A stretch of 64,000 nt of DNA from Oryzomicrobium sp. (GTDB lineage: Bacteria; Pseudomonadota; Gammaproteobacteria; Burkholderiales; Rhodocyclaceae): assembly GCF_021287045.1 (NCBI RefSeq), contig NZ_JAJTBG010000002.1, positions 248,001 to 312,000 of the forward strand, given 5' to 3'. Made by a program: the position numbers and the translations under genes. Below the pieces are notes generated by a model. The model made no database searches and had not been told where the DNA came from. It saw nothing but the letters and a program-made list of their open reading frames with translations. Below are positions 10,557-23,508 of the stretch, in pieces. Position 1 is the stretch's first letter; every line of letters begins with the position of its first letter.

Positions 10557-12128
10557 TCAGGGAGAAGGAGTGCGCCGCGCGCGGCAGCACTCGGCCACCG
10601 GAGCGACGCTGCCGTCCTCGGCCTGGGTCTCCAGGGTGACCGGGAAGCCCCACAGGGTGGCCACGTGGGACAGCACCGCCTCCGCCGTCTCCACGGCCAC
10701 GGGCCGGCGCCGGTACTGGAAGTGGCGCAGGGTCAGGGAGCGGTCGCCGCGCAGGTTCACGTTCCACACCTGGATGTTGGGTTCCCGGGAATGGACGTTG
10801 TACTGGTCGGCCAGGGTCTGGCGCAGCTGGCGGTAACCCTGCTCGTCGTGGATCGGCCCCACCGCCAAGTGCTCCCGCTGGTCGTCATCCACCAGGGTGA
10901 ACAGGCGGAACTCGCGCATCAGCCGGGGCGAGAGGAACTGGGCGATGAAGCTTTCGTCCTTGTAGTTGCGCATGGCGAAGTCGAAGGTGGCGCGCCAGTC
11001 GGACCCGGCGATCTCGGGAAACCACTCCCGGTCCTCGTCGTCCGGCTCCTCGCAGATGCGGCGCAGGTCGCGCCACAGGGCGAAGCCCAGGGCGTAGGGG
11101 TTGATGCCGGAAAACCAGGGGTGGTTGTAGGGCGGCTGCAGCACCACGTTGCTGTGGTGCTGGAGGAATTCGAGCATGAAGCCGTCGGACAGGCGCCCCT
11201 CGTCGTACAGGGTGTTGAGCAGGGTGTAGTGCCAGAAGCAGGCCCAACCCTCGTTCATCACCTGGGTCTGGCGCTGCGGGTAGAAGTACTGGGCCACCTT
11301 GCGCACGATGCGCACGATCTCGCGCTGCCAGGGTTCCAGCAGGGGGGCGTGCTTCTCGATGAAGTAGAGCAGGTTCTCTTCCGGCTCTTCGGGAAAGCGC
11401 CGCGCCGCCTCCACCGTCCGGTCACCGCCCTTGGCCGGCAGGGTGCGCCACAGGTCGTTGACCTGCTGTTGCAGGTACTCGGCCCGCTCGCGGATGCGCA
11501 CCCGCTCCTGGTCGGTGGACAGCTTGGGCGGCCGCCGGTAGCGGTCCACCCCCACGTTCATCAGGGCGTGGCAGGCATCGAGCAGTTGCTCCACCTCGTC
11601 GGCGCCGTAGCGCTCCTCGCACTCGGCGATGTAGTGCCGGGCGAACACCAGGTAGTCGATGATGGCGTCCGGGCTGGTCCACTGGCGGAACAGGTAGTTG
11701 CCCTTGAAGAAGCTGTTGTGGCCGTAGGCGGCGTGGGCGATCACCAGGGCCTGCATGGTCAGGGTGTTCTCTTCCATGAGGTAGGCGATGCAGGGGTCGG
11801 AGTTGATCACGATCTCGTAGGCCAACCCCATCTGGCCGCGCTTGTAGCGCCGCTCGGTGGCCAGGAACTGCTTGCCGAAGGACCAGTGGTGGTAGAACAC
11901 GGGCATGCCGATGGAGGCGTAGGCGTCCATCATCTGCTCGGCGGTGATCACCTCGATCTGGTGCGGGTAGCAGTCCAGGGCGTAGCGGGCGGCCACCTTG
12001 CCGATCTCCTCGTCGTAGAGGGTGAGCAGTTCCTCGGTCCATTCCGAGCCGTCGGGCAGGAACTGGCCGCTGCCGGGAGCCGCCAGGGGCGGGGTTTCGG
12101 GGGGCGGGGAGAGGAGGGGGATGTCCAT
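10557..12128 (-). CDS. SpoVR family protein (YcgB-like)
   Basis: A 523-residue soluble protein of the SpoVR/YcgB family, required for spore cortex formation in Bacillus and linked in enterobacteria to the YeaG/YeaH stress system. The N-terminus EWTEELLTLYDEEIGKVAARY, the motif GMPVFYHHWSFGKQF, and NSDPCIAYLMEENT/HAAYGHNSFFKGNYLF are strongly conserved in the family. His- and Glu-rich clusters (HAAYGHNSFF, NEGWACFWHYTLLNTLYDEG) suggest a metal site, by inference. It is the third gene of the yeaG-yeaH-spoVR operon, 45 bp after yeaH. Length is normal. Confidence 0.92.
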   Translation of the reverse strand: MDIPLLSPPPETPPLAAPGSGQFLPDGSEWTEELLTLYDEEIGKVAARYALDCYPHQIEVITAEQMMDAYASIGMPVFYHHWSFGKQFLATERRYKRGQMGLAYEIVINSDPCIAYLMEENTLTMQALVIAHAAYGHNSFFKGNYLFRQWTSPDAIIDYLVFARHYIAECEERYGADEVEQLLDACHALMNVGVDRYRRPPKLSTDQERVRIRERAEYLQQQVNDLWRTLPAKGGDRTVEAARRFPEEPEENLLYFIEKHAPLLEPWQREIVRIVRKVAQYFYPQRQTQVMNEGWACFWHYTLLNTLYDEGRLSDGFMLEFLQHHSNVVLQPPYNHPWFSGINPYALGFALWRDLRRICEEPDDEDREWFPEIAGSDWRATFDFAMRNYKDESFIAQFLSPRLMREFRLFTLVDDDQREHLAVGPIHDEQGYRQLRQTLADQYNVHSREPNIQVWNVNLRGDRSLTLRHFQYRRRPVAVETAEAVLSHVATLWGFPVTLETQAEDGSVAPVAECCRARRTPSP

Positions 12129-12173: not shown

Positions 12174-13451
12174 CTAGGCCAGCTTCTTCCTGAACAGTTC
12201 GCGGAATACCGGGTAGATGTCCTCCAGCCCCTCGATGCGCTGCATGGCGAAGCGGCCGGGGAAGCGGGGCTCCAGGCCCTGGTATTCCTTCCACAGGTTC
12301 TGGGGCTCCCCGGGGGTGATCTCGATGTAGGCGAAATACTGCACCCCGGGCAGGATGCGTTCGGCCAGCAGCTCGGCGCAGCGCGGCGAATCGTTTTCCC
12401 AGTTGTCGCCGTCGGAGGCCTGGGCGGCGTAGATGTTCCACAGGGACGAGGAGTAGCGCTCGGCCATGATCTTCTGCATCAGGTCCAGGGCGCTGGACAC
12501 CACGGTGCCGCCGGATTCCCGGGAGTGGAAGAAGTCGTCCTCGTTCACCTCGGTGGCGGTGGTGTGGTGGCGGATGAAGACCAGCTCGATCTTCTCGTAG
12601 CTGCGCTGCAAGAACAGGTAGAGCAGCATGAAGAAGCGCTTGGCGGTCTGCTTCTTCTGCTCGTCCATGGAGCCGGACACGTCCATCAGGCAGAACATCA
12701 CCGCCTGAGTGGAGGGCTGGGGAATGCGGATGCGGTTGTTGTAGCGCAAGTCGAAATCGTCGATGAAGGGTATCGCCTCGATGCGCAGCTTGAGCCGGGC
12801 GATCTCCTTGCGCAGGGCCACCACCTCCGGGTCGATCTCGGTGCGGTGGTCGCGCAGCAATTCGTCGAGGCGCGCCTGCAACTCGCGGATCTTGGCCCGG
12901 TAGGGCGCACTGGCGGCGATGCGCCGGCCGGTGGCGTCGCGCATGGTGCGCACGATGTTGATGTTGGTGGGCACCCCGCTGTGGGTGAAGCCGGCGCGCA
13001 CCCGCTTGAATTCCTCCAGCTTGGCGAGTTGGCGCTTGACCAGGTTGGGCAGAGCCAGGTCGTCGAAGAAGATGTCGAGGAACTCGTCCCGGGACAGGGT
13101 GAACACGAAGTCGTCCAGATGCTCGCCTTCGTTGCTGGCACCGCCGCCCCGGCCCTTGCCCGAACCGCCCCCGGCCGGGCGCTCGATCTCGTCGCCGGAG
13201 TGGAAGCGGTCGTTGCCCGGCTGCACTCCTTCCCACACGCCGCCTTGGCCGTGCTGGAACTGGGGCTCGGAAATATCCTTGCCGGGGATGGCGATGTTCT
13301 CGCCGGAGTCGATGTCGGTAATGCCGCGGCGGGTGATGGCGTCGGCCACCGCCTTGCGGATCTGCCCCTTGAAACGGCGAATGAAGCGCTGGCGATTGAC
13401 CGCGCTCTTGTGCTTGCTGTCGAACCGCCGATCGATGATGCGGACGGTCAT
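12174..13451 (-). CDS. yeaH: YeaH/YhbH family protein (DUF444) with VWA-like domain
   Basis: A 425-residue DUF444 protein. The C-terminal half is a von Willebrand A-like domain with a MIDAS-type DVSGSM motif (257-262). The N-terminus is basic (RIIDRRFDSKHKSAVNRQRFIRRFKGQIRKAV) and is followed by a Gly/Ser-rich linker at about 93-108. Family members are co-expressed with the YeaG kinase under nitrogen and stationary stress and are thought to act in the same pathway; YeaH may be a partner or target of YeaG. It lies between prkA (111 bp upstream) and spoVR. Length agrees with E. coli YeaH (427 aa). Confidence 0.93.
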   Translation of the reverse strand: MTVRIIDRRFDSKHKSAVNRQRFIRRFKGQIRKAVADAITRRGITDIDSGENIAIPGKDISEPQFQHGQGGVWEGVQPGNDRFHSGDEIERPAGGGSGKGRGGGASNEGEHLDDFVFTLSRDEFLDIFFDDLALPNLVKRQLAKLEEFKRVRAGFTHSGVPTNINIVRTMRDATGRRIAASAPYRAKIRELQARLDELLRDHRTEIDPEVVALRKEIARLKLRIEAIPFIDDFDLRYNNRIRIPQPSTQAVMFCLMDVSGSMDEQKKQTAKRFFMLLYLFLQRSYEKIELVFIRHHTTATEVNEDDFFHSRESGGTVVSSALDLMQKIMAERYSSSLWNIYAAQASDGDNWENDSPRCAELLAERILPGVQYFAYIEITPGEPQNLWKEYQGLEPRFPGRFAMQRIEGLEDIYPVFRELFRKKLA

Positions 13452-13562: not shown

Positions 13563-15485
13563 TCACGACGACTTGCGCACCCGCAGGTACCACTCGGTGA
13601 GCAGCCGGACCTGGCGCTCGGTGTAGCCCTTTTCCATCATGCGATTGACGAAGTCCTGGTGCTTCTTGTGCTCCTCGGTGCTGCCCTTGGTGTTGAAGGA
13701 GATCACCGGCAGCAGCTCCTCGGTGTTGGAGAACATCTTCTTCTCGATCACCGCGCGCAGCTTCTCGTAGGAGGTCCAGGCCGGATTGCGCCCGTCGTGC
13801 TTGGCGCGGGCGCGCAGCACGAAGTTCACCACCTCGTTGCGGAAGTCCTTGGGATTGCTGATGCCCGCCGGCTTCTCGATCTTCTCCAGTTCCTCGTTGA
13901 GGGCCCCCCGGTCGAGGATCTCGCCGGTGTTGGGGTCGCGGAATTCCTGGTCCTGGATCCAGAAGTCGGCATAGGTGACGTAGCGGTCGAAGATGTTCTG
14001 GCCGTACTCGGAATAGCTCTCCAGGTAGGCGGTCTGGATCTCCTTGCCGATGAACTCGGCGTAGCGCGGCGCCAGGTACTCCTTGAGGTAGCGCAGGTAC
14101 TTCTCTTCCACCTCGGGGGGGAACTGCTCCTGGGCGATCTGCTGCTCCAGCACATACATCAGGTGCACCGGGTTGGCGGCGATCTCCTTGTGCTCGAAGT
14201 TGAACACCTTGGACAGGATCTTGAAGGCGAAGCGGGTGGAAAGCCCGGTCATGCCCTCGTCCACCCCGGCGTAGTCCCGGTACTCCTGAAAGCTCTTGGC
14301 CTTGGGGTCGGTGTCCTTCAGGTTCTCGCCGTCATAGACCCGCATCTTGCTGTAGATGCTGGAATTCTCCGGGTCCTTGAGCCGCGACAGCACCGAGAAC
14401 TGGGCCATCATGCGCAAGGTGTCCGGGGCGCAGGGCGCCTTGGCCAGGGACGAGTTGGCGATCAGCTTGTCGTAGATCTTCACCTCCTCGCCGACCCGCA
14501 GGCAGTAGGGCACCTTGACGATGTAGATGCGGTCGAGGAAGGCCTCGTTGTTGCGGTTGTTCTTGAAGGCGGTCCATTCCGCCTCGTTGGAGTGGGCCAG
14601 GATCTGGCCGTCGAAGGGGATCGCACCGAAGCCCTCGGTACCCTTGTAGTTGCCTTCCTGGGTGGCGGTCAGCAGGGGGTGCAGCACCTTGATCGGCGCC
14701 TTGAACATCTCGACGAATTCCAGGATGCCCCGGTTGGCCAGGCACAGGCCGCCGGAGTAGCTGTAGGCGTCCGGATCGTCCTGGGAGTAGTTCTCCAGCT
14801 TGCGGATGTCGATCTTGCCCACCAGGGACGAGATGTCCTGGTTGTTCTCATCCCCCGGCTCGGTCTTGGCGATGGCGATCTGGGACAGCACCGAGGGGCG
14901 CAGCTTGACCACCCGGAACTTGGTGATGTCGCCGCCGAACTCGTGCAGGCGCTTCACCGCCCAGGGGCTCATGATGCTGTTGAGGTAGCGGCGCGGGATG
15001 CCGTAGTCCTCTTCCAGGATCGGCCCGTCCTCTTCCAGGTTGAACAAGGCCAGGGGCGTCTCGTGCACCGGGCTGCCCTTGACCGAGTAGAACGGCACCT
15101 TCTCCACCAGTTGCTTCAGGCGCTCGGCCAGGCTCGATTTGCCGCCGCCCACCGGGCCCAGCAGGTAGAGGATCTGCTTCTTCTCCTCCAGGCCCTGGGC
15201 GGCGTGGCGGAAGTAGGCGACGATCGACTCGATCACCTCCTCCATGCCGTAGAACTCGCGGAAGGCCGGGTAGATGCGGATCAGCTTGTTGGCGAACAGC
15301 CGCGACAGACGTGGGTCCTGACGGGTGTCGACGACCTCCGGGTCGCCGATCGCCATCAGCATGCGCTGGGCGATGCTGGCATAGGCCGACTTGTCGCTGC
15401 GACACAACTCCAGATACTCCTGGAGCGACATTTCCTCTTCCTGCGCCGCTTCGTAGCGACTCTGGTACTTGGCGAAGATGGACAT
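13563..15485 (-). CDS. yeaG: PrkA family serine protein kinase (YeaG)
   Basis: A 640-residue PrkA/YeaG protein: an N-terminal AAA+ domain with Walker A LLGPVGGGKSSL (about 108-119), then a C-terminal PrkA kinase-like domain. Family blocks such as CPDTLRMMAQFSVLSRL, DPKAKSFQEYRDYAGVDEGMTGLSTRFAFKIL and ISNPKDFRNEVVNFVLRARA are intact. In E. coli YeaG responds to nitrogen starvation and, with YeaH, limits RpoS-dependent responses. Recent work on Bacillus PrkA shows ATP-dependent protease activity, so the kinase label may be incomplete. It heads the yeaG-yeaH-spoVR operon, and a strong AGGAGG precedes the ATG. Confidence 0.95.
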   Translation of the reverse strand: MSIFAKYQSRYEAAQEEEMSLQEYLELCRSDKSAYASIAQRMLMAIGDPEVVDTRQDPRLSRLFANKLIRIYPAFREFYGMEEVIESIVAYFRHAAQGLEEKKQILYLLGPVGGGKSSLAERLKQLVEKVPFYSVKGSPVHETPLALFNLEEDGPILEEDYGIPRRYLNSIMSPWAVKRLHEFGGDITKFRVVKLRPSVLSQIAIAKTEPGDENNQDISSLVGKIDIRKLENYSQDDPDAYSYSGGLCLANRGILEFVEMFKAPIKVLHPLLTATQEGNYKGTEGFGAIPFDGQILAHSNEAEWTAFKNNRNNEAFLDRIYIVKVPYCLRVGEEVKIYDKLIANSSLAKAPCAPDTLRMMAQFSVLSRLKDPENSSIYSKMRVYDGENLKDTDPKAKSFQEYRDYAGVDEGMTGLSTRFAFKILSKVFNFEHKEIAANPVHLMYVLEQQIAQEQFPPEVEEKYLRYLKEYLAPRYAEFIGKEIQTAYLESYSEYGQNIFDRYVTYADFWIQDQEFRDPNTGEILDRGALNEELEKIEKPAGISNPKDFRNEVVNFVLRARAKHDGRNPAWTSYEKLRAVIEKKMFSNTEELLPVISFNTKGSTEEHKKHQDFVNRMMEKGYTERQVRLLTEWYLRVRKSS

Positions 15486-15588: not shown

Positions 15589-17061
15589 TCAACCGCCCGG
15601 CAGGAAAAAACGCACACCTTGGGCAAGTGGCAGGGCGGCGCCGTCGTTGATTACATTGGTCTGGCGGCGCATGTAGGCCTTCCAGCTGTCGGAACCGGCC
15701 TCCCGGCCGCCGCCGGTGTCCTTCTCGCCGCCGAAGGCCGCGCCGATCTCGGCCCCCGAAGTGCCGGTGTTGACGTTGGCCAGCCCGGTGTCGGCCCCCG
15801 CCGCCGAGAGAAAGCGCTCGGCCCGGCCCAGGTCCCGGGTGAACAGGGCGCCGGAGAGGCCCTGGGGCACGTCGTTGTGGGAGGCGATGGCGGCGGCGAA
15901 ATCGTCGTAGGGAAAGAGGGTGAGGAGCGGCCCGAACACCTCGTCCCGGTGCCGGGCCGCCATGGCCTCGGCGCGGAACAGGGCCGGGGTGACGAAGTGG
16001 CCCGGGCCGGGCAGGGCCCGGCCGCCGGTCAGGCGCGTTTCGCCGGCCGCCTCCCGGGCCGCCACGGCGGCGAGGAAACGCTGCCGCGCCGCCTCGTCGA
16101 TGAGGGGCCCCACCAGGGTGGCCGGATCGGCCGGATCGCCCACCGGCGCCGCCTGACAGGCCGCCGCCAGGCGCGCTTCCAGGGCGGGCAGCACGGCGCG
16201 GTGCACGAAGGCCCGCCGGGTGCTGGTGCAGCGCTGCCCGGCGGTGCCCATGGCACCGAAGAAGAGGGCCTGGGCAGCCAGTTCCAGGTCGGCCGTCTCG
16301 TCCACGATCACCCCGTTGTTGCCGCTGCATTCGAGCAGGCTGCGGCCCAGGCGCCGGGCCACCGCCACGGCGACGTGGCGGCCGGTGGCCGAAGAGCCGG
16401 TAAACGACACCAGGGGCAGGCGCCCGTCGCCCACCAGGCCGTCCAGGGTGGCCGGCTCGTCGGAATAGACCGTGGCAAACACGCCCCGGCCATCCACCTC
16501 GGCCACTCGGGCGTCCACCACCTCTTCCACCAGGGCGGAAACGGCCTGGGCGGTCAGGGGCGCCTTGGAGCTGGGCTTCCACACCACCGTGTCGCCGCAC
16601 ACGGCGGCGATGAAGGCGTTCCACGCCCACACCGCGGCGGGGAAGTTGAAGGCGGTGACGACCAGCACCGGGCCGAGGGGATGCCACTGCTCCAGCAGCC
16701 GGTGGCCGGGCCGCTCCGAGGGCAGGGTCAGACCGTGCAGCTGGCGCGACAGGCCCACGGCGTAGTCGGCCATGTCGATCATTTCCTGGATCTCGCCCTC
16801 GGCTTCGCTCCTGATCTTGCCCACCTCGGCGCCGAGCAGGGCGGCCAGGCGCGCCTTGTCGCGGCGCAGGGCGTCGGCGATGGCGCGCACCAACAGGCCG
16901 CGCCGCGGCGCCGGCACCTCGCGCCAGCGGCGGAAGGCGGCGGCGCTCACCGCCACCCGGTCGGCGGCCTCTTCCGCCGAAGTCACCGCCACCCGGCCCA
17001 GATCGTGGCCGGTGGCCGGATTCACCGAGAGCAGCTGGCGCGGCCCGCCCGGGACATTCAT
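15589..17061 (-). CDS. Aldehyde dehydrogenase, ALDH7 (antiquitin-like) family
   Basis: A 490-residue NAD(P)-dependent aldehyde dehydrogenase. The catalytic Cys is in GTAGQRCTSTRR and the general-base Glu is in RSLLECSGNNG. The C-terminus FGGEKDTGGGREAGSDSWK, followed by YMRRQTNVIN, is the hallmark of ALDH7 (antiquitin, AmaB), which oxidises aminoadipate semialdehyde/piperideine-6-carboxylate. Its ATG overlaps the stop of the arginase-ornithine aminotransferase fusion by 4 bp, so here it is well placed to oxidise glutamate semialdehyde (in equilibrium with pyrroline-5-carboxylate) to glutamate. The substrate is therefore inferred from context, and a lysine-pathway role is the alternative. Confidence 0.88.
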   Translation of the reverse strand: MNVPGGPRQLLSVNPATGHDLGRVAVTSAEEAADRVAVSAAAFRRWREVPAPRRGLLVRAIADALRRDKARLAALLGAEVGKIRSEAEGEIQEMIDMADYAVGLSRQLHGLTLPSERPGHRLLEQWHPLGPVLVVTAFNFPAAVWAWNAFIAAVCGDTVVWKPSSKAPLTAQAVSALVEEVVDARVAEVDGRGVFATVYSDEPATLDGLVGDGRLPLVSFTGSSATGRHVAVAVARRLGRSLLECSGNNGVIVDETADLELAAQALFFGAMGTAGQRCTSTRRAFVHRAVLPALEARLAAACQAAPVGDPADPATLVGPLIDEAARQRFLAAVAAREAAGETRLTGGRALPGPGHFVTPALFRAEAMAARHRDEVFGPLLTLFPYDDFAAAIASHNDVPQGLSGALFTRDLGRAERFLSAAGADTGLANVNTGTSGAEIGAAFGGEKDTGGGREAGSDSWKAYMRRQTNVINDGAALPLAQGVRFFLPGG

Positions 17062-19316
17062 GGCCGCGCCTCCATCTCCAGCCCGGCCAGCACCCGCTCC
17101 AGGGCATCCGCCGCCTGGGCCAGGGTGGCCTCGTCGATGGTCAGGGGCGGGGCCAGGCGGATCACCGTGCCGTGAGTGTCCTTGGTCACCACCCCGGCGG
17201 CGAGCAGGCCGTCCACCACCGCCCGGGCGCTCACACCCTGGACCTCGACGCCGACGAACAGGCCCCGGCCGCGCACTTCCTTGATCAACGGCGAGGCGAT
17301 GCCTTGCAGGCGCGCCAGCAGCCAGGCGCCGAGCCGGGCCGAACGGGCCGGCAGATCCTCGTCGAGCAGCAGTTCCAGGGCCTCCAGGGCCACCGTGGCG
17401 GCCAAGGGGTTGCCGCCGAAGGTGGAGCCGTGGTCGCCGGGCTTGAGCACGCCGAGCACCTCGCGCCGGGCGAGGAAGGCCGACACCGGCAGCAGGCCGC
17501 CGCCCAGGGCCTTGCCCAGGCACAGGCCGTCGGGGCGCACGCCCTCGTGCTCGCAGGCGAGCAGCCGGCCGGTGCGGCCCAGGCCGGTCTGCACCTCGTC
17601 GGCGATGAGCAGCACGTTGCGGCGCCGGCAAATCTCGGCGCAGGCCGCCAGGTAGCCCGGCGGCGGCACGACGATGCCGCCCTCGCCCTGGATCGGCTCC
17701 ACCAGGAAGGCGGCGGTGTTGGGGGTGATGGCCGCCTCCAGGGCCGCCGCGTCGCCGTAGGGAATGGTCAGCAGCCCCCCCGGGAAGGGGCCGAAGCCGG
17801 CCCGGTACTGGGGTTCGGTGGACAGGCCGACGATGGCGATGGAGCGGCCGTGGAAGTTGCCTGCGCAGGCGATGATCTCGGCGTCGCCGTCGGGCACGCC
17901 CTTGACCACGTGGGCCCACTTGCGCGCCACCTTGAGGGCGGTTTCCACCGCCTCCAGGCCGGTGTTGGCGGGCAGGGCCAGGTCGAAGCCGGTGATCTCG
18001 GTGAGGCGCTTCAGCAGCACCGGCAGCCGGTCGTTGGAAAAGGCCCGGGACGTCACCGCCAGGCGCCGGGCCTGGGCGGCGAGAGTCGCCACCAGGCGCG
18101 GGTGGCTATGGCCGAAGGACACCGCCGAGTAGGCGGCCATCATGTCGATGTAGCGGCGCCCCTCGGTATCCACCAGCCAGGGCCCCTCGCCGTGACTCAC
18201 CACCAGGGGCAGGGGCTCGTAGTTGTGGGCGCCGTGGGCCATTTCCCAATCGGCCAGGGTGGCGGCGTCCGGGGCCAGGGCCGTTTCCACCAGGTCCACC
18301 GCCAGGCGGCCGGTGCGCAGGTCCCGGTCCAGGCCGGGACGGTATTCGACGATCTCCAGGGCCACCGCCCCGGGGCGGCGCAGCACGCCGCGCAGGGCTG
18401 GCAGCACCTCTCCGGCGGCCAGGCCGAGGGGGGCCGGCACGGTGGTGGCCGGGGCGTCCTCCGGATCGAAGGCGTCCAGGTCGATGGTCACGCCGAAGGG
18501 CGCGGTGCCGTGGCGGCCGGCCCGGGCCACGGCGTCGGCGAAGACCCGGGCGAAGCCCAGCCTGGCCAGGTCGTCCGGGGGCACTACCTTGACCCCGAGG
18601 CGCACCAGATGGCGCAACTCGGCGGCCTCGAAGCTGCGCGCACCGATCACCGTGATGCGCTGCGGGTCGAGCACCGGCCCGTCCACCCAGGCCAATTCCG
18701 GGCTACCCAGACCGAGCAGGGCGGCCAGGGGCATGCCGTGGGGGTTGCCGGTGGGGGAGGATTCGGCCACGTGGGCGTCCAGGTGGGCGTCGATCCACAC
18801 CAGGCCCGGGGCCTCGCCCAGCGCCTGGCCGACGCCGCGCCAAGTGCCGGCGGCGACGCTGTGATCGCCGCCCAGGATCACCAGCCGGCCGCCCCCGCCC
18901 GCCGCCTGGCCGACCGCCGCCGCCAGCCGGCGCAGGTAGCCGCCCAGCCGGGCCAGGCGGCCGGCGTCCGCCGGGGCGTCCTCGGCCACCGGCGCAATCC
19001 GTTCGACAGCACCGACCCGGCCGCCGGCACGACGCACCGCCCCGGCCACGCCAAGATGCGCCAGGGCGGCGGGGCCGGCGGCCAGGTCGTCCTCGGCCGC
19101 CGGGGGGCCGCCCAGGCCGCAGGCGGCGTCGATCAGGACCACCGGGGGCAGATCGCCCCCCGTGGCCCGGGTGGCGGAATGCGTGGCCGGATGAGTGGCC
19201 GGATGGCCCGGGGAAGAATCAGAAGAATCGGGCGAGCGGGCCGGCGCCGCTGCGGGCGCGGGGTCGGCGACATGGGCGGGGCGCTCTTGTGGAGCCGCCT
19301 TGAGTCGGTCGTTCAT
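17058..19316 (-). CDS. Fused arginase-ornithine aminotransferase
   Basis: One 752-residue frame joins two complete enzymes. Residues 57-348 are a ureohydrolase of arginase type, with manganese ligands in GGDHS (His152), DAHLD (Asp176, His178, Asp180) and DLD (Asp279, Asp281), plus His193 in SPTGNPHG and the EIVEY motif (Glu324). Residues 359-752 are a class-III aminotransferase matching ornithine aminotransferase (AHNYEPLPLVV, NTGLEAVETALKVARKW, DEVQTGLGRTG, PLP lysine Lys602 in LGKALGGGLLP, GDHGSTFGGNPL). The first 56 residues are a low-complexity Ala/Pro/Thr tail. Expected chemistry: arginine to ornithine plus urea, then glutamate semialdehyde. An AGGAGGT site 7 bp before the ATG at 19316 supports the start. 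No good ribosome site precedes Met359, so separate internal translation looks unlikely. Confidence 0.9.
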   Translation of the reverse strand: MNDRLKAAPQERPAHVADPAPAAAPARSPDSSDSSPGHPATHPATHSATRATGGDLPPVVLIDAACGLGGPPAAEDDLAAGPAALAHLGVAGAVRRAGGRVGAVERIAPVAEDAPADAGRLARLGGYLRRLAAAVGQAAGGGGRLVILGGDHSVAAGTWRGVGQALGEAPGLVWIDAHLDAHVAESSPTGNPHGMPLAALLGLGSPELAWVDGPVLDPQRITVIGARSFEAAELRHLVRLGVKVVPPDDLARLGFARVFADAVARAGRHGTAPFGVTIDLDAFDPEDAPATTVPAPLGLAAGEVLPALRGVLRRPGAVALEIVEYRPGLDRDLRTGRLAVDLVETALAPDAATLADWEMAHGAHNYEPLPLVVSHGEGPWLVDTEGRRYIDMMAAYSAVSFGHSHPRLVATLAAQARRLAVTSRAFSNDRLPVLLKRLTEITGFDLALPANTGLEAVETALKVARKWAHVVKGVPDGDAEIIACAGNFHGRSIAIVGLSTEPQYRAGFGPFPGGLLTIPYGDAAALEAAITPNTAAFLVEPIQGEGGIVVPPPGYLAACAEICRRRNVLLIADEVQTGLGRTGRLLACEHEGVRPDGLCLGKALGGGLLPVSAFLARREVLGVLKPGDHGSTFGGNPLAATVALEALELLLDEDLPARSARLGAWLLARLQGIASPLIKEVRGRGLFVGVEVQGVSARAVVDGLLAAGVVTKDTHGTVIRLAPPLTIDEATLAQAADALERVLAGLEMEARP

Positions 19317-19655: not shown

Positions 19656-20234
19656 ATGGAAGCCTTCCTCGTCTCCACCGGCATCGTCGCCCTGGCCGAA
19701 ATCGGCGATAAGACCCAGCTGCTGTCCTTCGTCCTGGCCGCCCGCTTCAAGCGCCCCTGGCCGATCGTCGCCGGCATCTTCGTCGCCACCGTCTTCAACC
19801 ACGCCGCCGCCGGCGCGGTGGGGGCCTGGCTGACCCACCTGATCGGCCCGGACACCATGCGCTGGATTTTGGGCCTGTCCTTCCTGGCCATGGCCGGCTG
19901 GATCCTGGTGCCGGACAAGCTCGACGACGACGAGGCGCCGCAAGCCCGCTACGGCGCCTTCGCCACCACCCTGATCGCCTTCTTCCTTGCCGAAATGGGC
20001 GACAAGACCCAGGTGGCCACGGTGGCCCTGGCGGCCCGCTTCGACTCCCTGGCGGCGGTGGTGCTGGGCACCACCTTCGGCATGATGCTGGCCAACGTGC
20101 CGGCGGTGCTGGTGGGCGACAAGCTGGCCCACAAGCTGCCGGTGAAGGCCATCCACGTAGTCTGCGCCCTGATCTTCGCCGCCCTCGGCGTGGCCGCCCT
20201 GGCCGGGGCCGATTTCGCCGCCTGGCTGGGCTGA
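19656..20234 (+). CDS. TMEM165/GDT1 (UPF0016) family cation transporter, putative Mn2+ exporter
   Basis: A 192-residue membrane protein with six hydrophobic segments arranged as two repeats. Each repeat opens with the signature ExGDKT: EIGDKTQ at 15-21 and EMGDKTQ at 113-119. These acidic motifs form the cation path in the GDT1/MneA/MntX family, whose bacterial members export Mn2+. The riboswitch directly upstream supports this function. The ATG at 19656 is chosen because helix 1 and the first motif begin at once; an upstream in-frame extension would read through the riboswitch. A strong hairpin with a T tail follows the stop. Confidence 0.92.
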   Translation: MEAFLVSTGIVALAEIGDKTQLLSFVLAARFKRPWPIVAGIFVATVFNHAAAGAVGAWLTHLIGPDTMRWILGLSFLAMAGWILVPDKLDDDEAPQARYGAFATTLIAFFLAEMGDKTQVATVALAARFDSLAAVVLGTTFGMMLANVPAVLVGDKLAHKLPVKAIHVVCALIFAALGVAALAGADFAAWLG

Positions 20235-20241
20235 ACCGGCG

Positions 20242-20268
20242 CGGCGGCGCCCCCGCCGCCGGCCTTTT
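20242..20268 (+). terminator. Rho-independent terminator after the TMEM165/GDT1 gene
   Basis: An 8-bp perfect GC stem (20242-20249 with 20254-20261) and a CCCC loop are followed by GCCTTTT, 8 bp after the stop codon. This cleanly ends the Mn-riboswitch transcript before the corA leader begins. Confidence 0.75.
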
Positions 20269-20331
20269 CCGGGCTGTTCCGGCCTGTTCCCGGCACCACG
20301 ACCCCGGCCCCGCAAGCCGGGGCAAGCGGCC

Positions 20332-20360
20332 TTGGCGCAGTGCAGCAAGCGTGCTAACCT
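20332..20360 (+). promoter_or_regulatory. Putative sigma-70 promoter of the corA leader
   Basis: TTGGCG at 20332-20337 and TAACCT at 20355-20360 are separated by exactly 17 bp. The predicted start, about 20367, gives a 300-nt untranslated region before corA. Confidence 0.55.
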
Positions 20361-20391
20361 CGCGCCCGTTTTCATCTCCGGAGATTCCGAC

Positions 20392-20475
20392 GTGGGCAGT
20401 TGCCTGGGTGGCTCGGACGGTGGCAGTTGCCGCACCGCCGATACGCCGCTCCCGCTGACCGCCACGACGGGGTGA
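20392..20475 (+). CDS. Possible leader peptide upstream of corA
   Basis: A 27-codon frame starts with GTG at 20392 and ends with TGA at 20473-20475. GGAG lies 8 nt before the GTG, good spacing for a ribosome site, and is itself part of a 12-bp palindrome (20374-20385). The peptide begins VGSCLGGSDGGSC and so repeats Gly-Ser-Cys; the repeat is exact at DNA level (GGCAGTTGCC at 20395-20404 and 20422-20431, 27 bp apart). A terminator hairpin follows 42 bp after the stop. The layout resembles an attenuation leader, but the repeated DNA could instead be an operator or an RNA structure. I do not recognise the peptide. Confidence 0.35.
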   Translation: MGSCLGGSDGGSCRTADTPLPLTATTG

Positions 20476-20517
20476 CCGCCTCCCCGGGCCTGCGCCAGAA
20501 CGCGCCGCCCGCCTAGC

Positions 20518-20542
20518 GTCCCCCGTCCTGGGGGACACTTTT
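20518..20542 (+). terminator. Intrinsic terminator inside the corA leader (possible attenuator)
   Basis: A perfect 7-bp stem GTCCCCC/GGGGGAC with a 5-nt loop is followed by ACTTTT. It lies between the leader promoter and corA, so it would cut most leader transcripts short unless overridden. The alternative is that it ends an independent small RNA of about 175 nt. Confidence 0.6.
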
Positions 20543-20672
20543 ACACCGCTTCCTCACCCGCTTTCGCTGGCCTGTGGCCGCGAGGGTGGCGCGATCGTTG
20601 CCGGTTGCCAGTCAGCGCCGAGCGCATGCCGCCGTGCCCCGTCACTCCGGACCACTCCGGTAAGGCGCGAGC

Positions 20673-21635
20673 ATGATCAACATCTTCGAACTGCTGAATG
20701 GCCGCCTGCGTCAGACCCAGGCCATCCGCCACAGCGACCTGGCGGGCAAGGCGCCGATCTGGATCGACATCGTCGAGCCCACCGAGGAGGAATCCGCCTG
20801 GGCCCACGAACAGTGGGGCCTGGACCTGGAGACGCCGGAGGACTTGACCGACATCGAGGCGTCGGCACGCTTCTACGAGACCGACGACGGGGCCCTGCAC
20901 CTGCGCTCGGACTTTCTGCTCGACAAGGACGACGACGACCACAACGTGCCGGTGCGCTTCGTGCTGCGCGGCGGGCTGCTGTTTTCGATCCGCGACGACG
21001 ACCTGCCGGTGTTCCGCCTGTCGCGCATGCGCGCCCGCACCCAGCCGGGCCACGTTTCCGACGCCATGGACGTGCTGCTCGACCTGTACGCCACCGACGT
21101 GGAGTATTCCGCCGACGCCCTGGAGGAAATCTACGGGGCCCTAGACGAGGTGAGCCGCCACGTGCTCGGCAACCAGCTCTCGGACGAGGCCGCCGGCGAG
21201 GTGCTGTCGTCGATCGCCAAGGAAGAGGACACCAACGGGCGCATCCGCCGCAACGTGATGGACACCCGCCGCGCCGTGTCCTTCCTGATGCGCGGCAAGC
21301 GCCTGACCAACGAGCAGTTCGAGGAGGCGCGCCAGATCCTGCGCGACATCGACTCCCTGGACGGCCACACCACCTTCCTGTTCGACAAGATCAACTTCCT
21401 GATGGACGCCACCGTCGGCTTCATCAACATCAACCAGAACAAGATCATCAAGATCTTCTCGGTGGCCTCGGTGGCCCTGCTGCCGCCGACCCTGATCGCC
21501 AGTGTGTACGGCATGAACTTCGGGCGCATGCCCGAGCTGCAATGGGAGTACGGCTACCCCTTCTCCCTGATCCTGATGATCCTGTCGGTGATCGCCCCGT
21601 TCACCTACTTCCGCCGCCGCGGCTGGCTGAAGTAG
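20673..21635 (+). CDS. corA: CorA family magnesium/cobalt transporter
   Basis: A 320-residue member of the CorA (MIT) family, a pentameric Mg2+ (Co2+, Ni2+) channel. The N-terminal two thirds are the cytoplasmic funnel, rich in acidic residues (e.g. DKDDDDHNVP). Two C-terminal helices flank the invariant YGMNF signature (in LIASVYGMNFGRMPEL), and the tail ends with the basic FRRRGWLK. All expected parts are present. The ATG at 20673 has only a weak ribosome site. Regulation probably involves the terminated leader at 20366-20542. Confidence 0.95.
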   Translation: MINIFELLNGRLRQTQAIRHSDLAGKAPIWIDIVEPTEEESAWAHEQWGLDLETPEDLTDIEASARFYETDDGALHLRSDFLLDKDDDDHNVPVRFVLRGGLLFSIRDDDLPVFRLSRMRARTQPGHVSDAMDVLLDLYATDVEYSADALEEIYGALDEVSRHVLGNQLSDEAAGEVLSSIAKEEDTNGRIRRNVMDTRRAVSFLMRGKRLTNEQFEEARQILRDIDSLDGHTTFLFDKINFLMDATVGFININQNKIIKIFSVASVALLPPTLIASVYGMNFGRMPELQWEYGYPFSLILMILSVIAPFTYFRRRGWLK

Positions 21636-21840: not shown

Positions 21841-23361
21841 TCAGCCCAGGGCGCGGCTCGCCTCCAGCGCCAGGGCGGCGGCGGCGACGAGGGCGATCAG
21901 CAGCAGGGCGACGCGCTGGCGGCGCTGTTCGGCGAGCAGCAGCTTGAGGGCGGAATCGTCACGGCGCGGCTCCTCGGCCAGGCGCCGGTAGATCAGGCGC
22001 GGCAACTGGGGCAGCTCCTTGGCCCAGTAGGGGCCCTCGTGCTTGAGGCCGTCCACCAGGGCGCGCCAGCCGATCTGGCGGCTCATCCAGCGCTCCAGGA
22101 AGGGCTTGGCGGTCTTCCACAGGTCCAGCTCCGGGTCGAGCTGGCGGCCCAGGCCCTCGATGTTGAGCAGGGTCTTTTGCAGCATCACCAGCTGGGGCTG
22201 GATTTCCACGTTGAAGCGGCGGCTGGTCTGGAACAGGCGCAGCAAGAGCTTGCCGAAGGAGATGTCCTTCAGGGGCCGGTCGAAGATCGGCTCGCAGACG
22301 GTGCGCACCGCCGCCTCCAGCTCGTCCACCCGGGTGTCCGCCGGGGCCCAGCCGGATTCGATGTGTGCCTCGGCCACCCGCTTGTAGTCACGGCGGAAGA
22401 AGGCCAGGAAGTTCTGCGCCAGGTAGTTCTTGTCGACTTCGTTGAGGGTGCCGACGATGCCGAAGTCCAGGGCGATGTAGCGGCCGTCGTCGGCCACCAG
22501 GATGTTGCCCGGGTGCATGTCGGCGTGGAAGAAGCCGTCGCGGAACACCTGGGTGAAGAAGATTTCCACCCCGGCCCGGGACAGGGCCTTCAGGTCGATC
22601 CCCTTGGCCAGCAGCACGTCGGTCTGGGAAATGGGCGTGCCGTGCATGCGCTCCATGGTCATCACCGTGGTGGCGCAGTAGTCCCAGTACACCTCGGGCA
22701 CCACCAGCAGCGGCGAATGCTCGAAGTTGCGCCGCAATTGCGAGCAGTTGGCCGCCTCGTGCATCAGGTCCAGCTCGTCGTAAAGGTACTTGGCGAACTC
22801 GGCCACCACCTCCCGGGGCTTCAAGCGCCGACCGTCCACGGAGACGGCCTCGACCAGCCGGGCCAGGGTGTCCATCAGCGCCAGGTCGTGGGCGATCACC
22901 GGGCGCATGCCCGGGCGCAGCACCTTGACCGCCACTTCGCGGCCATCCGGCAGCTTGGCGAAGTGCACCTGGGCCACCGAGGCCGAGGCCACCGGGGTGA
23001 GGTCGAATTCGGGAAAGACCTGGTTGAGGGGCCGGCCGAAGGCGGCCTCGATCTCGGCCACCGCCTGCTCGGAGGGGAAGGGCGGCACCCGGTCCTGCAA
23101 CTTGGCCAGTTCCTCGGCCACGTCCGGCGGCAGCAGGTCGCGGCGGGTGGACAGCACCTGGCCGAACTTGACGAAGATCGGCCCGAGGGCTTCCAGGGCC
23201 TTGCGCAGGCGCACCGCCCGGGGCTCGGAAAAACGCCGCCAGCGCAGCAGGGGCGCCAGCCAGCGGGCGGCCCGGCCGGTGGGCTCGGCCTCGATGAGCA
23301 TGCCATCCAGGCCGTGGCGGAGCGCGACGGAAACGATGCGGGCGAGTCGGAAGAGGCGCAT
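21841..23361 (-). CDS. ubiB: UbiB, ubiquinone biosynthesis kinase-like protein
   Basis: A 506-residue atypical kinase of the UbiB/ABC1/COQ8 family, needed for aerobic ubiquinone synthesis and thought to extract or deliver lipid precursors using ATPase activity. The family-specific KFGQ motif (about 65-68), the Ala-rich loop ASASVAQVH, the catalytic HADMHPGN and the metal-binding ALDFG are all seen. The C-terminus has a hydrophobic segment ([16 protein letters not shown]). I chose the ATG at 23361 ([19 protein letters not shown]), which matches the usual UbiB N-terminus. A TTG five codons upstream is possible. It is not in the ubiE-ubiJ-ubiB cluster common in gammaproteobacteria. Confidence 0.93.
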
Positions 23362-23508
23362 GGGCGCGATCGGCAATCGAAGGAGGTAAGAAAGCAGCCC
23401 GGCGCGGCCCTGCCGGCGCCGGGGGAAAGGCCGGAGTTTACCGGGATTGGCGCCCCCCCGCTCAAGCGCCCCGGGACGGTCTGGCGCCCCGGGGCGGCAG
23501 GCCCGGCC

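Follow-up and report, generated by a model that had tools for sequence, protein, structure and literature searches.

A gene fusion of an arginase-family domain and an ornithine aminotransferase in Oryzomicrobium and related Betaproteobacteria

Introduction

Can one polypeptide carry two consecutive steps of arginine catabolism, the hydrolysis of arginine to ornithine and the transamination of ornithine? The question is raised by a gene in a 64,000-nucleotide stretch of Oryzomicrobium sp. (contig NZ_JAJTBG010000002.1, positions 248,001 to 312,000; hereafter the window), in which an arginase and an ornithine aminotransferase (OAT) had been noticed in a single frame. RocF and RocD, the enzymes of the classical arginase pathway, are presented as two separate proteins in a passage of PMC4569260. 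The fusion was described in no title, abstract opening or passage met in our literature searches, which covered open-licence papers.

On sequence grounds, an arginase-family domain and an OAT are genuinely fused in frame in this gene, which is likely to encode a bifunctional arginine-catabolic enzyme that would convert arginine through ornithine to glutamate 5-semialdehyde. This reading draws on the uninterrupted frame, the complete catalytic residues, the fusion's conservation across numerous genomes and the overlap with a dehydrogenase gene. What appears to be new is the fusion of two known enzyme families, common to many relatives and combined with an unusual arginase clade.

Results

One uninterrupted frame joins the two domains

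Translation of window:17058-19316:- gave 752 residues from the ATG with no stop in frame, as the original prediction had it; its coordinates were correct and the strand, which it omitted, is minus. The motif AGGAGGT lies directly 5' of the ATG. The Pfam scan of the protein identified Arginase (PF00491) at residues 122-346 (163 bits, cut-off 22) and Aminotran_3 (PF00202, class III aminotransferase) at residues 363-743 (384 bits, cut-off 30.5), and no third Pfam family at E 0.001. By family assignment, the two domains are predicted to catalyse consecutive steps, in agreement with the original prediction. Stop-free full-length homologues with 54-83% identity were found in other genomes, so the joining of the two frames is no frameshift. 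Plus-strand open reading frames also run across the stretch and were provisionally attributed to the high GC content of the gene opposite them. The N-terminal extension (Table 1) is also present in the congener L006 and was not seen in four other aligned fusions, whose start codons are provisional.

The claim that the domains are joined with almost no linker was borne out by an AlphaFold2 model built from 54 sequences (mean predicted local distance difference test (pLDDT) 85.5, predicted template modelling score 0.80). The last arginase helix (residues 334-346) and the first OAT helix (351-361) are separated by a four-residue turn in this model, with block pLDDT of 94 and 84 on the two sides of the joint. 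A motif search succeeded in 18 of the 43 fused rows, and there 39-44 residues (median 39) lie between the catalytic Glu and the OAT 'HNY' motif; unfused arginases mostly end 24-46 residues past this Glu, and in four readable arginase-then-OAT pairs the OAT may start 12-28 residues ahead of the motif. Compared with these unfused ends and starts, the spacing suggests that nothing was added at the joint.

Codon changes between the window and its congener were 51 synonymous and 28 non-synonymous in the OAT part, 53 and 67 in the arginase part, 5 and 6 at the junction, and 9 and 28 in the N-terminal extension. Taken by itself, this pair therefore shows evident constraint in the OAT part only, and the argument for the joint is drawn from the broader set of fusions.

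The C-terminal half is assigned to ornithine aminotransferase

The OAT half scored 473.8 bits against TIGR01885 (ornithine--oxo-acid transaminase), above the equivalog cut-off of 378.4, and the OAT parts of four other fusions tested, at 483-522 bits, exceeded it as well. Against another OAT model, NF003145, the OAT half of the window protein scored 500.3 bits, below that model's cut-off of 656. The expected PLP (pyridoxal 5'-phosphate) lysine was located at K602, together with the expected substrate residues: Y366, Y396, R491, E545, K602 and R720 align with Y55, Y85, R180, E235, K292 and R413 of human OAT. An OAT mutated at Y85, the counterpart of Y396, was named among the structure matches, and we take a role for this residue as given. 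Roles in recognition of PLP or ornithine are described for Y55, R180, E235, K292 and R413 in a passage of PMC5372011. The best 50 Foldseek matches were PLP enzymes of the OAT fold, OATs among them, and the closest known structure was RocD (3ruy; 52% identity, TM-score 0.95 by target length). By family and residues, the C-terminal half is thus predicted to be an ornithine aminotransferase (EC 2.6.1.13). Lysine aminotransferase was considered instead and is disfavoured by the same family score and residues.

The N-terminal half retains the metal and catalytic residues of arginases

The best solved relative of the arginase half is the 1cev arginase. Alignment to the positions of 1cev that we take to be metal ligands placed H152, D176, H178, D180, D279 and D281 at these sites, so the set is complete, as had been claimed; H193 and E324 are the equivalents of the catalytic residues, presumably H141 and E277 in human numbering. 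The arginase alignment comprised 106 non-redundant rows, leaving out L115 (a duplicate of L010), L118 (below 80 bits) and repeat loci. All metal ligands and both catalytic residues were retained in 43/43 fused rows, and among the 53 unfused rows of the same clade the H141 position was non-His in four and the H101 position in one.

The arginase half is the sole PF00491 match in the genome, which is 98.66% complete. No urease (PF00449) match was found there, in a search confined to that family. Members of the arginase clade also occur in metagenome-assembled genomes (MAGs) of Chlamydiota and Verrucomicrobiota (L049, L062, L102 and L106), where three of the four adjoin an OAT. Scanned with the arginase alignment, viral contigs yielded one relative.

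The fusion recurs within one group of bacteria

Full-length fusions were found in 6 of 41 genomes, comprising the window's own and 40 relatives (G000, G001, G004, G018, G023 and G034), in 12 of 399 genomes of an even sample of the order (own genome included), and in 1 of 398 genomes of an even sample of the phylum, namely the window's own. Twelve further genomes of the order sample matched in the OAT part only (E 1e-90), two of these matches (L138 and L139) having a comparison-type arginase gene downstream. Another 20 genomes of the phylum sample matched in the OAT part; six loci among them had a comparison-group arginase upstream. An order sample centred on a Dechloromonas genome (L039) gave matches identical to those of the window's order sample, which places the window in that order; an alphaproteobacterial origin, considered earlier, was abandoned on this ground.

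The named loci were the best 80 of 567 relatives, scanned with patterns from fused sequences, and are no frequency sample; 28 of the 80 were fused. These were mostly from Rhodocyclales; they comprised Azonexus, Dechloromonas, Thauera, Azoarcus, Zoogloea, Azospira, Sulfuritalea, Sterolibacterium and Methyloversatilis, along with Rhodocyclales and Betaproteobacteria of less precise name, and isolates and MAGs alike carried the fusion. When one-gene and two-gene forms were tabulated, as the original prediction had suggested, the 79 named rows left after removal of one duplicate comprised 27 fused, 10 arginase-then-OAT, 5 OAT-then-arginase and 37 without a called OAT neighbour. Among these 37, five have fewer than 350 bases downstream, so that an adjoining OAT could have escaped the count, and L077 and L093 show an OAT frame under the thresholds used for the count. 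Unfused members of the same arginase clade thus adjoin OAT in both gene orders. None of 2039 matching plasmid records had one place covering 80% of the fusion protein. The fusion is an architecture common to a group of bacteria and rare across the phylum sample.

The history of the fusion was addressed with quick trees without bootstrap, and the constraint of one fused clade was tested by the approximately unbiased test. All but one of the 43 fused rows grouped with a single unfused row, L129 (support 87), in the OAT tree, which needs 3 label changes; the exception, L103, stood apart. No arginase match was found in the flank of L129, so a decayed fusion was rejected there. The fused rows fell into several groups in the arginase tree, with 7 label changes; three 'alone' rows within its largest fused group (L040, L043 and L107) end at contig ends. 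One fused clade was not rejected for OAT (p 0.151) or for arginase (p 0.309, with L040, L043 and L107 counted as fused). A single origin of the fusion is compatible with both domains, which non-rejection does not establish. At L040:4983-6008, in a MAG, the arginase frame enters the OAT start and then departs near the contig end, which may be a frameshift or assembly error.

Related OATs adjoin a putative second type of arginine-to-ornithine enzyme

The protein adjoining the OAT of L011 matched an arginine dihydrolase family (NF052232), with Alr4995 and Sll1336 as the nearest solved proteins, and is hereafter called ArgZ-like. Its relatives, 42-57% identical, are encoded next to the OAT in L135, L144 and L152, and in L137 the relative shares one frame with the OAT. 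The five OATs (L011, L135, L137, L144 and L152) are 52-62% identical to the fused OAT. In L137:1321-3678 (G316), a single uninterrupted frame (786 codons) encodes an OAT followed by the ArgZ-like dihydrolase domain, the reverse of the order in the window, and the second part matched Pfam DDAH_eukar. Searched in the 399 order genomes, this frame had matches in 24, and only the G316 match spanned both domains. OATs of this family thus seem to meet two kinds of arginine-to-ornithine enzyme, which supports arginine as the substrate.

Neighbouring genes

The window holds three neighbours that recur at other fused loci (Table 1): the ALDH7-type aldehyde dehydrogenase gene, prkA and the ABC1/UbiB-type kinase gene. 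An ALDH7 homologue was present at 15 of 43 fused loci, on the same strand in 14 and on the other strand in L041; it was also near 2/7 OAT-then-arginase, 1/17 arginase-then-OAT (other strand) and 0/39 'alone' arginase loci. The prkA gene was found at 12 and the kinase gene at 14 of the 43 fused loci, whose stretches differ in length. The ALDH7-type dehydrogenase is therefore a frequent, inconstant partner of the fusion. Its ATG overlaps the fusion stop, which suggests an arginine-to-glutamate operon in this genome, and we propose that it may act as a glutamate semialdehyde dehydrogenase.

Table 1. Features of the window around the fusion gene
Feature	Coordinates	Strand	Remarks
Arginase-OAT fusion gene	17058..19316	minus	752 amino acids; ATG at 19316, TGA stop ending at 17058
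N-terminal extension, residues 1-54	19155..19316	minus	low-complexity, Ala/Pro/Ser/Thr-rich; predicted disordered; pLDDT <50 for residues 1-53
Arginase-family domain, about residues 55-349	18270..19154	minus	predicted from Pfam, 1cev alignment and AlphaFold2
Junction, residues 347-350, a turn joining two helices	18267..18278	minus	predicted from AlphaFold2 secondary structure and motif spacing
Ornithine aminotransferase domain, residues 351-752	17061..18266	minus	predicted from family score and human OAT alignment
ALDH7-type aldehyde dehydrogenase gene	15589..17061	minus	490 amino acids; start overlaps fusion stop (ATGA, four bases)
prkA	13563..15485	minus	PrkA AAA and C-terminal domains; downstream neighbour
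yeaH-type gene (DUF444)	12174..13451	minus	downstream of prkA
spoVR-type gene	10557..12128	minus	downstream of yeaH-type gene
GDT1-type divalent cation antiporter and CorA-type transporter genes	19659-21635	plus	divergent, upstream of fusion
ABC1/UbiB-type kinase gene	21841..23376	minus	upstream; two plus-strand genes between kinase and fusion

The GDT1-type antiporter was found at 2 of 43 fused loci, those of the two congeners, which makes a link to a manganese (Mn)-dependent arginase doubtful. The prkA and yeaH genes of Azoarcus olearius BH72 are induced in nitrogen-fixing growth, according to a passage of PMC8467165 that is silent on arginase, and E. coli yeaG is required for adaptation to nitrogen starvation, according to PMC4664914. 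From gene order, we put forward as a hypothesis that the fusion may be tied to nitrogen limitation.

Proposed function and alternative explanations

We propose that the N-terminal Mn-type ureohydrolase domain would convert L-arginine to urea and ornithine, that the C-terminal PLP domain would transaminate ornithine to glutamate 5-semialdehyde, and that in this genome the overlapping ALDH7-type enzyme would probably oxidise the semialdehyde to glutamate. Fusion would fix a 1:1 ratio of the two domains and keep their active sites together, most likely favouring ornithine degradation over its re-use for arginine synthesis; channelling of ornithine is possible. As bacterial arginases and OATs both form hexamers of threefold symmetry, the two domains might sit in one common assembly. 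Both activities, arginine as the natural substrate and the substrate of the dehydrogenase are inferred from sequence.

Several observations weigh against this proposal. The original prediction had called the arginase complete; this held for the metal and catalytic residues, but not for the family score, 130.1 bits against the cut-off of 227.6 of the RocF equivalog TIGR01229, nor for two recognition positions, since Asn130 and Asp183 (human numbering) are H182 and E230 in the window. Three unfused arginases of the clade were also under the RocF cut-off (185, 155 and 201 bits). Among the 24 fused loci with more than 3 kb downstream, ALDH7 was on the same strand in 7, on the other strand in 1 (L041) and absent from 16, and prkA lies directly downstream of the fusion in L036, L037 and L039. 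Other fusions must therefore use another semialdehyde dehydrogenase, and confidence is lowered both in the proposed function and in the broader operon reading given below. The best named family of the ALDH7-type protein was L-piperidine-6-carboxylate dehydrogenase (NF050084; 635.1 bits, under the cut-off of 730), an enzyme of a lysine pathway. The genome also has a PutA-like frame containing both domains, whose product could oxidise the semialdehyde as well. The ArgZ-like assignment was made for the L011 protein only, at 379.7 bits against a cut-off of 450, and in the OAT tree the sequences of L144 and L152 belong to the opposite half. Lastly, an in-frame ATG precedes the OAT motif of the window protein by four codons.

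The changes in the arginase half may affect its choice of substrate. Throughout the clade, Asp183 is replaced by Glu (96/96 rows) and Asn130 by His (93/96), whereas 10 chosen comparison arginases keep Asp183 in 10/10 and Asn130 in 9/10. In human arginase, the substrate's alpha-carboxylate is bound by loop A (N130, S137 and N139) and its alpha-amino group by loop B (D181-P184), according to a passage of PMC9224512; the same passage treats loop A with N130 as a specificity determinant and quotes work in which N130A raised the Michaelis constant (Km) 50-fold. With two arginine-recognising positions changed, the clade, fused or not, seems to read the amino-acid end of its substrate in a modified way, and the half, which is also under the RocF cut-off, is not a textbook RocF and could differ from it in substrate range. 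The domain might then act on another guanidino compound, such as homoarginine, canavanine or another alpha-amino guanidino acid, which would also suit a downstream dehydrogenase nearest to a lysine-pathway family. We regard this as improbable: the OAT part keeps the ornithine-recognising residues of human OAT, some related OATs adjoin or are fused with the ArgZ-like arginine dihydrolase, and both changes would still be compatible with binding of an alpha-amino acid. Arginine is kept as the more probable substrate. To our knowledge, no member of this His/Glu clade has been characterised.

For an enzyme with both activities, the chances are about even that fusion serves stoichiometry only and that ornithine leaves freely, which rivals channelling and is compatible with the bifunctional enzyme proposed here. 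Unfused adjacent arginase/OAT pairs occur elsewhere, and no facing active sites were seen in the model, which came without an inter-domain error map; against this, the fusion seems to be rarely undone (one unfused row beside 42 of the 43 fused rows in the OAT tree), which suggests a benefit beyond co-expression. There is a small chance that internal initiation or proteolysis yields a separate OAT part, beside the fusion protein or in place of it. The ATG of the window would allow it, and other fusions often have GTG/TTG codons in this stretch, but no start is fixed: among the 40 fused loci in which the motif was found, an in-frame ATG within 40 codons upstream occurred in 7, and none of ATG, GTG or TTG in 13. 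The internal start at the joint is thus not conserved among fusions, and the model is helical on both sides. Artefactual joining of two genes by assembly or frameshift has a negligible probability and is refuted by the full-length fusions in the order sample and among the named loci.

The broader operon reading builds on the proposed bifunctional enzyme and is doubtful as a whole. An uncharacterised His/Glu-clade arginase would hand on ornithine through a linker-free fusion; ALDH7 would have been recruited in part of the lineage for a one-operon route from arginine to glutamate; the block would work with the nitrogen-starvation genes prkA-yeaH-spoVR; the RocF model would miss the arginase half; and a second, reverse-order OAT-ArgZ-like fusion would have arisen in the same order.

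Relation to known systems

By family, the fusion would carry out the same two consecutive reactions as RocF/RocD of Bacillus; it differs from them in being one protein, in its arginase domain lying under the RocF cut-off and in the changed Asn130 and Asp183 positions. Because the arginase half is under that cut-off and the OAT half passes its own, arginase activity may be overlooked in the annotation of fusion-bearing genomes. In many environmental betaproteobacteria, consecutive enzymes of a textbook catabolic route appear to have been joined and, for the most part, to have stayed so; the fusion would offer a natural test object for ornithine channelling, and the rules of arginase specificity could be widened by a clade whose recognition residues differ.

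The cyanobacterial AgrE/ArgZ, a bifunctional arginine dihydrolase-ornithine cyclodeaminase (PMC8262935), likewise fuses an arginine-to-ornithine enzyme to an ornithine-consuming one, but its first domain releases CO2 and ammonium in place of urea and its second reaction gives proline. In BIO3-BIO1, dethiobiotin synthetase is fused to diaminopelargonic acid (DAPA) aminotransferase, according to a passage of PMC9309667, so that here too an aminotransferase is joined to another enzyme of its pathway, although pathway and partner differ. On Azospirillum and Skermanella replicons (L117 and L118), the arginase lies immediately upstream of OAT as a separate gene and is of the DAHxDFN type, unlike that of the window. 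We presume that the first domain of AgrE/ArgZ is unrelated to the arginase domain and that the BIO3-BIO1 aminotransferase is of the same class as OAT. In a Rhizobium plasmid, rocD and rocF were both named under one match.

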